34,457 nucleotides of DNA from Nitrospiraceae bacterium (GTDB lineage Bacteria > Nitrospirota > Thermodesulfovibrionia > UBA6902), in the NCBI GenBank assembly GCA_020356065.1, contig CP070632.1, forward strand, positions 1,800,340 through 1,834,796, written 5' to 3'. The notes beneath the pieces were generated by a model. The model saw only the letters and a program-made list of their open reading frames with translations. It was not told the DNA's origin and made no database searches. The stretch's first letter is position 1. Each line of letters opens with the position of its first letter. The position numbers and the translations under genes are program-made. Positions 22,671 through 34,457 of the stretch are shown here, in pieces.

Positions 22671-22747
22671 ACAAGTAAGAACTAAGAAGTAAAAAGTGAG
22701 AGGTAAAAAAATTAACTTCTTACTTCCTGGTTTTAACTTCTCACTTT
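22671..22747. repeat. heptad repeat tract forming a hairpin between dnaN and gyrB
   Basis: Eleven 7-nt units in register: first purine-rich (AGAACTA, AGAAGTA, AAAAGTG, AGAGGTA from 22678), then pyrimidine-rich (TAACTTC, TTACTTC, CTGGTTT, TAACTTC, TCACTTT to 22747). Positions 22692-22704 pair almost fully with 22735-22748, so the minus-strand transcript could form a stem with a 30-nt loop just after the dnaN stop. It may end or slow transcription, or be a dispersed repeat. Confidence 0.7.
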
Positions 22748-28516: not shown

Positions 28517-28599
28517 TGACAGGTAAAGGGTAACGAGTAACGAATATTGGGCAATTAATAATTGATAACAAGTAACAGATTACTGATCACTGATTACTT
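28516..28599. repeat. 84-bp heptad repeat tract between serC and serA
   Basis: Twelve 7-nt units fill exactly 84 bases. They begin GTGACAG, GTAAAGG and two perfect copies of GTAACGA (28530-28543). They end GTAACAG, ATTACTG, ATCACTG and ATTACTT. The first part is GTAAC-like and the last three are the complementary type, so the tract is an inverted array that could fold. It leaves 11 bases before the serA start, so it forms most of the serA 5' leader and there is no Shine-Dalgarno site. Confidence 0.8.
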
Positions 28600-33710: not shown

Positions 33711-33715
33711 ATGAG

Positions 33716-33792
33716 CATTCAGCTTTCAGCATAACACTACTTATCCCATTATCCTTTACTCCTGACTACTATCTCCTAATTATCGTATCCGG
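33716..33792. repeat. heptad repeat tract before tRNA-Lys
   Basis: About eleven 7-nt units from CATTCAG and CTTTCAG (33716-33729) through TCCCATT, ATCCTTT, ACTCCTG, ACTACTA and TCTCCTA to 33792. The repeats are looser than at 28516. The tract starts five bases after the cyclase stop. Confidence 0.45.
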
Positions 33793-33840: not shown

Positions 33841-33916
33841 GGGCCGCTAGCTCAGTTGGTAGAGCAACGCCCTTTTAAGGCGTGGGTCGAAGGTTCGAAT
33901 CCTTCGCGGCTCACCA
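33841..33916 (+). tRNA. tRNA-Lys (UUU)
   Basis: A 76-nt cloverleaf with acceptor GGGCCGC/GCGGCTC (one G-T pair), D arm GCTC/GAGC, anticodon stem ACGCC/GGCGT with loop CTTTTAA (TTT at 33874-33876), T arm GAAGG/CCTTC with TTCGAAT, discriminator A and encoded CCA (33914-33916). Confidence 0.97.
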
Positions 33917-33927
33917 TTTACGACAGA

Positions 33928-33962
33928 GTAAAGGGTATAGGGAAAAGGGGGCAGGGAAAGGC
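33928..33962 (+). repeat. left heptad tract / inverted-repeat arm flanking the four-helix-bundle gene
   Basis: Five 7-nt units: GTAAAGG, GTATAGG, GAAAAGG, GGGCAGG and GAAAGGC. AGGGAAAAGGG (33939-33949) and AGGGAAAGG (33953-33961) are the exact complements of 34393-34403 and 34381-34389. The tract ends one base before the GTG start and contains the only plausible ribosome-binding sequence. Confidence 0.8.
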
Positions 33963-34349
33963 GTGGAGCTCGGGTATAGAAAGAGCATTGCCTGGCAGAA
34001 AAACCAGCGGGCAATAGTCAGAACAGCTCAGCTTATTAAACAGCTGCCCGAAGAAATACCCTGTAAAAAAATAGCCGGTCAGTTGTTTTCATCGATGTCA
34101 TCGATAGGAGCCAACATAGCTGAAGGCTACAGTGACTATCAGGGGAATGAGTACCAGCGATATCTGAAAATATCGTTGCGTTCAGCCTTTGAAACAGACC
34201 ATTGGCTGGTGACATTACAATCTCTATGCAATGGTGATGGAAAAAAGGACTTGCAATTATTGGAGGAGATCAATAGTCTAAATTTAGAGACAATCAAGAT
34301 TCTTTTTAAGACGATAGAGAGCATAAAAAAAGAGACGCAGGGCGGATAG
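33963..34349 (+). CDS. four-helix bundle protein (23S rRNA IVS family)
   Basis: A 128-aa member of the family encoded in 23S rRNA intervening sequences and elsewhere (TIGR02436/PF05635). Family features are the WQK helix near the start, IPCKKIAGQLFSSMSSIGANIAEGY with the near-invariant ANIAEGY, then EYQRYLKISLRSAFETDHWL. These fit four helices, and relatives assemble as pentamers. The nucleic-acid role is unproven. I choose GTG at 33963 because the longer frame back to 33882 would overlap tRNA-Lys, and AGGGAAAGG lies just upstream. The gene sits between tRNA-Lys and tRNA-Glu, enclosed by inverted heptad tracts, a layout like IVS elements but outside rRNA. Confidence 0.85.
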   Translation: MELGYRKSIAWQKNQRAIVRTAQLIKQLPEEIPCKKIAGQLFSSMSSIGANIAEGYSDYQGNEYQRYLKISLRSAFETDHWLVTLQSLCNGDGKKDLQLLEEINSLNLETIKILFKTIESIKKETQGG

Positions 34350-34350
34350 A

Positions 34351-34406
34351 GGTGAGATTGGATAAGGGTGTTTGTTTTTCCCTTTCCCTTAACCCTTTTC
34401 CCTGCG
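34351..34406 (+). repeat. right heptad tract / inverted-repeat arm flanking the four-helix-bundle gene
   Basis: Eight 7-nt units ending TCCCTTT, CCCTTAA, CCCTTTT and CCCTGCG. CCTTTCCCT (34381-34389) and CCCTTTTCCCT (34393-34403) pair in register with the left arm, three unpaired bases lying between the two blocks on each side. The tract ends six bases before tRNA-Glu. Confidence 0.8.
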
Positions 34407-34412
34407 AAGCCA

Positions 34413-34457
34413 GTCCCCATCGTCTAGTCTGGCCTAGGACACCGGCCTTTCACGCCG
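34413..34457 (+). tRNA. tRNA-Glu (UUC), cut by the window end
   Basis: The sequence from GTCCCCA through the D arm to the anticodon loop CTTTCAC is present; TTC is at 34449-34451. The 3' part lies outside the window. The start and anticodon arm CCGGC/GCCG agree with bacterial tRNA-Glu. Confidence 0.9.

Follow-up and report, generated by a model that had tools for sequence, protein, structure and literature searches.

To our knowledge, no function is known for PF05635/TIGR02436, a large protein family that owes its name to an oddity of 23S rRNA. In Coxiella burnetii, the intervening sequence (IVS) in helix 45 of 23S rRNA has a 28-bp stem and is excised by RNase III; tandem GACAGAT heptads, whose number varies between strains, precede its open reading frame (ORF), and the first of them is where RNase III cleaves the stem (PMC4990558). 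CPR bacteria carry IVP-encoding insertions within their 16S and 23S rRNA genes (PMC11270868), PF05635 genes have been noted in cas loci (PMC3936711), and the homology of the family to Avd, the accessory protein of diversity-generating retroelements, has been noted as well (PMC10053308).

Degenerate heptanucleotide repeats have a literature of their own. In the P6b stem of the Nostoc tRNA-Leu intron they pair into a hairpin (PMC3488679), and Beggiatoaceae carry TAACTGA heptamers (PMC4679880). These are degenerate 7-bp tandem tracts like those described below, and the accessible parts of both accounts report no PF05635 gene alongside. In the open-access literature, we found no report that links heptad arms to PF05635 genes lying outside rRNA, and none that describes heptad-armed cassettes within tRNA operons or at the gene junctions of mRNA operons.

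The window analysed here is a stretch of 34,457 nucleotides from a Nitrospiraceae genome (G000). Near its end, and with all features on the forward strand, a PF05635/TIGR02436 gene fills the loop of a hairpin between two tRNA genes. They are tRNA-Lys and tRNA-Glu, as the first-pass annotation had it: tRNA-Lys(TTT), the upstream host gene (33841–33916; ARAGORN and Rfam), and tRNA-Glu(TTC), which starts at 34413. Only the 5' part of the latter (34413–34457) is present, because a run of N, a scaffold gap of the assembly, starts exactly after the window end and inside the gene; in the sister genome it is intact (L059). Downstream of tRNA-Lys, the left junction TTTACGACAGAGTAAAGGGTAT (33917–33938), whose initial five bases, TTTAC, also open the cassette-free spacer TTTACTGCA in a relative (G002), leads into the 5' arm, the purine-rich heptad tract AGGGAAAAGGGGGCAGGGAAAGG (33939–33961). 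The gene occupies 33963–34349, assuming a GTG start and with the stop codon at 34347–34349, and reads in the same direction as both tRNAs. It is followed by the 3' arm, the complementary pyrimidine-rich heptad tract CCTTTCCCTTAACCCTTTTCCCT (34381–34403), and by the right junction GCGAAGCCA (34404–34412).

Both arms are seven-base-periodic, and the in-register inverted repeat of 11 and 9 bp that had been read around the gene proved exact. The outer stem joins AGGGAAAAGGG (33939–33949) to CCCTTTTCCCT (34393–34403) over 11 bp, GGC (33950–33952) lies unpaired opposite TAA (34390–34392), and the inner stem joins AGGGAAAGG (33953–33961) to CCTTTCCCT (34381–34389) over 9 bp. The end of the 5' arm may double as the ribosome-binding site of the gene. 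Rfam matches in the window were to tRNAs only, without a conserved group I or II intron RNA, and the cassette, filled by the PF05635 ORF alone, lacks a transposase ORF. Other seven-periodic tracts of the window lie at 22673–22706, 28578–28598 and 33714–33732, the last just upstream of tRNA-Lys, where the sister genome has a related tract.

The pairing of the arms far exceeds chance. Their alignment score of 17 compares with 7.9 (sd 1.4) in dinucleotide shuffles, none of 2000 of which reached 17, and in comparisons with 45 further seven-periodic tracts from this genome the 5' arm scored 11 at best; the own-genome controls were 400 kb of sampled stretches plus the flanks of fetched loci. The arms are thus more complementary than heptad tracts elsewhere in this genome. 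In the predicted fold of the interval RNA the arms pair with each other (z −3.9), and with only a short linker between them they reach −38 kcal/mol (z −5.0). In such short-linker folds, the arms of the cassette in the sister species (G001) reach −50 (z −6.3), likewise with a three-by-three internal loop, and those of a cassette between tRNA-Val and tRNA-Asp (G039) −30.5 (z −9.8).

That the enclosed gene encodes a four-helix bundle is borne out by profile matches and by structure prediction. It matches PF05635, '23S rRNA-intervening sequence protein' (7.4e-16), and TIGR02436, 'four helix bundle protein' (2.2e-16), and a model of the protein built with 20 relatives is a four-helix bundle with a pLDDT of 89. 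The best structural matches of this model are the solved S23/IVP proteins 2rld and 2gsc (E 1e-4 to 1e-3), which have five chains each. It also has the same four-helix fold as the Avd structures 4dwl and 8ub8 (TM 0.71–0.81), and this Avd-like fold makes it plausible that the protein binds RNA. The proteins of the window and the sister species are 70% identical, with synonymous sites saturated. Among 11 family pairs tested, eight gave dN/dS ratios of 0.06–0.17, two were saturated and one was too similar; by these ratios, PF05635 proteins are under purifying selection where it is measurable, whereas the Coxiella ORF has been reported as expendable (PMC4990558).

The proposed likeness to an IVS, a stem with a PF05635 gene inside, extends down to the heptads published for Coxiella (PMC4990558). 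Like 23S rRNA IVSs, the cassette has a PF05635/S23p ORF in sense with its host genes and enclosed by complementary arms; like the Coxiella IVS, it has tandem heptamers in the stem upstream of the ORF, a purine-rich Shine-Dalgarno-like stretch before the ORF and a size of about 0.43–0.48 kb. Yet it lies between tRNA genes, and its relatives at mRNA operon junctions, not in helix 9, 25 or 45 of 23S rRNA. The CPR insertions likewise bring PF05635 ORFs into non-coding RNA genes, but theirs are inside rRNA genes. Excision has been shown for the Coxiella IVS and is assumed here by analogy only; on the same comparison, we infer that the element works like an IVS, although its location fails the definition of a 23S rRNA IVS.

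In searching relatives for the tRNA pair without the cassette, we found it in G002, of the same genus, where only TTTACTGCA separates tRNA-Lys from tRNA-Glu (the contig ends shortly after), and in many other genomes: in 14 of 22 complete pairs the spacer is shorter than 30 nt, mostly 1–5. Since the two tRNA genes are adjacent (about 0–9 nt) in G002 and many relatives, this comparison of sequences shows that the cassette was inserted into a spacer no longer than about 9 nt. A clear target-site duplication was not seen at its ends; CAG possibly occurs at both, compared with the empty TTTACTGCAG of G002. In the sister species, also a member of this genus, the cassette occupies the same position, and its arms differ from those of the window in sequence and length but still pair, so that gene and pairing are both kept in a close relative.

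A third homologous cassette, that of G039, from another family of the same order, has an uninterrupted 18-bp stem and lies between tRNA-Val and tRNA-Asp, where the spacer of relatives, 1–163 nt, could not hold the gene. When a profile of these three genes was run against 230 genomes of the class, the three scored 200–232 bits and the next match 76. The suggestion that the element uses tRNA operons as sites thus holds for this subfamily but not in general, the usual site being the junction of co-directional operon genes. We dropped tRNA genes as the preferred site, as among the family genes examined only this subfamily is found there. The exact arm motif AARGGRAAARGG is not in excess in the own genome, with 20 occurrences against 20 in a reversed control. 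The own genome has six PF05635 matches in all. One of them lies between ABC-transporter-like genes (L004, G000:C1:2781826-2785116); its arms still pair, whereas its gene, interrupted in frame by a single TGA and a single TAA, is decaying.

The armed arrangement is general. PF05635 matches were found in 35 of 37 genomes of the bacterial family, and inverted arms with a score of at least 18 enclose 64 of 102 PF05635 genes (63%) but only 25 of 850 other genes at the same loci (2.9%; odds ratio 56, Fisher p 1e-51); mismatched flanks were armed in 2.1%. When the proteins are grouped at 50% identity and each cluster counts once, arms occur in at least one member of 21 of 30 clusters. We set the threshold of 18 after a first look at 31 loci, which are included in this family set. 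Independent of that look is a second scan, in which each species was represented by a single genome; of its 80 loci, which come from Bacteroidota, Planctomycetota, Desulfobacterota, SAR324, Acidobacteriota, Clostridia, Chloroflexota and other groups, 61% were armed, compared with 5.9% of cross-pairs. Further loci of the class were armed in 10 of 15 cases, one of the 15 (L282) repeating an earlier locus. About 39% of PF05635 genes have no arms at threshold 18.

Only arm periods of 7 and 8 are enriched, plus 14 as twice seven. Periods 7 and 8 account for 46% and 20% of arms in the family set and for 24% and 29% across phyla, all others for 0–4%, and the 5' arm is purine-rich in 54 of 64 and 45 of 49 cases, respectively. 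Sequence comparison over about 200 relatives thus shows most PF05635 genes, in this lineage and beyond, to be enclosed by 7- or 8-bp-periodic arms. At five loci (L124, L161, L168, L184, L196), an entire heptad hairpin or a longer repeat, and not just a single arm, stands on either side of the PF05635 gene, the two copies being direct.

Between co-directional neighbors, the PF05635 gene has the sense orientation at 59 of 61 loci of the family set (binomial p 1.6e-15) and in 68 of 68 across phyla, together 127 of 129. We discarded the purine-rich 5' arm as an orientation signal: the polarity of a hairpin is the same on both strands, and therefore only the direction of the ORF is informative. Several junctions exist in occupied and empty form, gene names here being our reading of the encoded proteins. 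The hisA-hisF junction is occupied in G001 and G016, whereas in G000 the stop codon directly adjoins the start codon. For cas4-cas1, G036 has the occupied form and G012 the empty one; for yebC-ruvC, these are found in G032 and G027, respectively, the empty form having a TAATG overlap. At such junctions the cassette falls between stop and start, and an arm can provide the upstream stop codon.

One pair of loci, L177 (G027) and L178 (G036), has an arm-gene-arm unit that is 87% identical over 544 nt in unrelated surroundings, the identity stopping within the arms. Other homologous PF05635 genes sit in different places and have different arms; three more pairs considered as moved units share mainly the gene and not the arms. 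We also rejected L127 and L128 (G026, G022) as a moved pair, as they occupy the same site, among the remnants of one integrase-like (tyrosine recombinase) gene; their cassettes are 91% identical, and different parts of the integrase-like gene are missing on either side, giving different breakpoints. Recent transposition within a genome was not seen, no family pair in the same genome exceeding 55% identity. The mobility proposed at the outset thus has good, if indirect, support in the comparison of sequences, from empty sites in several operons and from the displaced unit.

We consider it probable that the cassette is an rRNA-type IVS element between tandem tRNA-Lys and tRNA-Glu genes, together with the following account of its working. 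It would be transcribed with its host tRNA operon, and RNase III would cut the stem as it does in the Coxiella IVS. Cleavage would release the two tRNA precursors, whose ends could then mature normally, and would leave the cassette RNA as a possible template for the protein, with the 5' arm supplying the ribosome-binding site. The protein, presumably a pentamer like its solved relatives and structurally related to Avd, would bind the cassette RNA and help to maintain or spread it. Heptad hairpins that lack the gene but lie in the same spacers would be non-autonomous or deletion derivatives, and arm complementarity would be renewed by heptad slippage and hairpin-templated copying. The sense bias could reflect selection for expression from the host operon instead of the mode of insertion.

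In diversity-generating retroelements, Avd goes with a reverse transcriptase, but we found no such gene (PF00078) in G000, G001 or, these two included, in 19 of 37 genomes. A reverse-transcriptase partner is therefore not needed for the cassette to be present, and we dropped it as a requirement; an RNA-copying route in G000 and G001 would need another enzyme.

Hairpins without a gene are a feature of these genomes in their own right. In 1.13 Mb of sampled sequence we counted 267 seven-periodic and 90 eight-periodic tracts, against 2–27 for periods 5, 6, 9, 10 and 11. Hairpins arise from 84 of the 7/8-periodic tracts, 50 of them away from a PF05635 gene. Gene-less heptad hairpins occur in several Lys-Glu and many Val-Asp spacers of relatives, the heptad differing each time; a strict automatic rule accepts two and six of these, respectively. 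Within about 12 kb of a cassette, 51% of hairpins score at least 15 against its motif, compared with 6.7% elsewhere in the same genome and 3.6% in other genomes, and this sharing of the cassette motif suggests that heptad hairpins spread locally. At shared sites, the match is 23.0 between a cassette's own arms, 20.2 between orthologous arms and 18.6 between cross-pairs. As own arms match better than orthologous ones, arms tend to evolve in concert, as expected from copying across the stem; upkeep of hairpins by template switching is documented (PMC8794818). At L187 (about 1205–1265; G027), a ruvC-like coding sequence contains a gene-less heptad hairpin of ∼60 nt that seems to keep the reading frame; a relative in L108 is without it.

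The abundance of gene-less 7/8-bp hairpins, also in the same tRNA spacers, the greater likeness of own than of orthologous arms and the recorded template switching would all fit heptad hairpins being a self-renewing mutational feature, driven by slippage and template switching, with arms devoid of RNA function and an ordinary PF05635 gene lying within or captured. We regard this as rather unlikely, since arms around other genes of these loci are 20 times rarer, so that chance capture fails to explain the link with one protein family; L177 and L178, moreover, moved as arm-gene-arm.

The empty sites and the displaced unit would also suit a cassette mobile at the DNA level, with the arms as terminal inverted repeats, a putative transposase acting in trans and the sense bias as survival where an operon expresses the gene; gene-less hairpins resembling the arms of a cassette within ∼12 kb would then be MITE-like. 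Yet the arms of different copies have little sequence in common beyond the period, unlike transposon ends, the insertion is without a clear target-site duplication, and a sense to antisense ratio of 127:2 is extreme for DNA transposition, for which reasons we think this origin unlikely. That two congeneric species have the gene at one site, and that the family is under purifying selection, would agree with an immobile, vertically inherited regulatory or toxin-antitoxin-like gene of the tRNA operon with a terminator or attenuator hairpin, but we consider this very improbable, as the gene is absent from the Lys-Glu spacer of G002 and many relatives, its own relatives sit in his, cas, hem and ruv operons with arms of the same type, and no toxin-antitoxin partner was seen beside it.

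Returning to the IVS-type element, a wider proposal is possible, which we put forward tentatively and would not call probable: PF05635 genes and heptad or octad hairpins may jointly make up a single class of selfish operon elements that act at the RNA level, widespread but so far unrecognised, both gene-bearing and gene-less, with arms renewed across the stem, of which the 23S IVSs were the first members to be noticed and which would explain many bacterial heptanucleotide repeats. If most PF05635 members are sense hairpin cassettes at operon junctions, the family would gain a common anatomy, 23S IVSs would become a special case of such cassettes, and the degenerate heptanucleotide repeats of bacteria would acquire a candidate linked protein. 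The copy in the tRNA operon offers a clean test case for cleavage, tRNA maturation and protein-RNA binding on a transcript of ∼0.65 kb.

As a minor observation, two PF05635 cassettes with unusually long arms, L031 (G036:C330) and L140 (G035:C192), have a reverse-transcriptase gene at a distance of 0.3–2 kb, and a cas1-like gene adjoins L031 as well.
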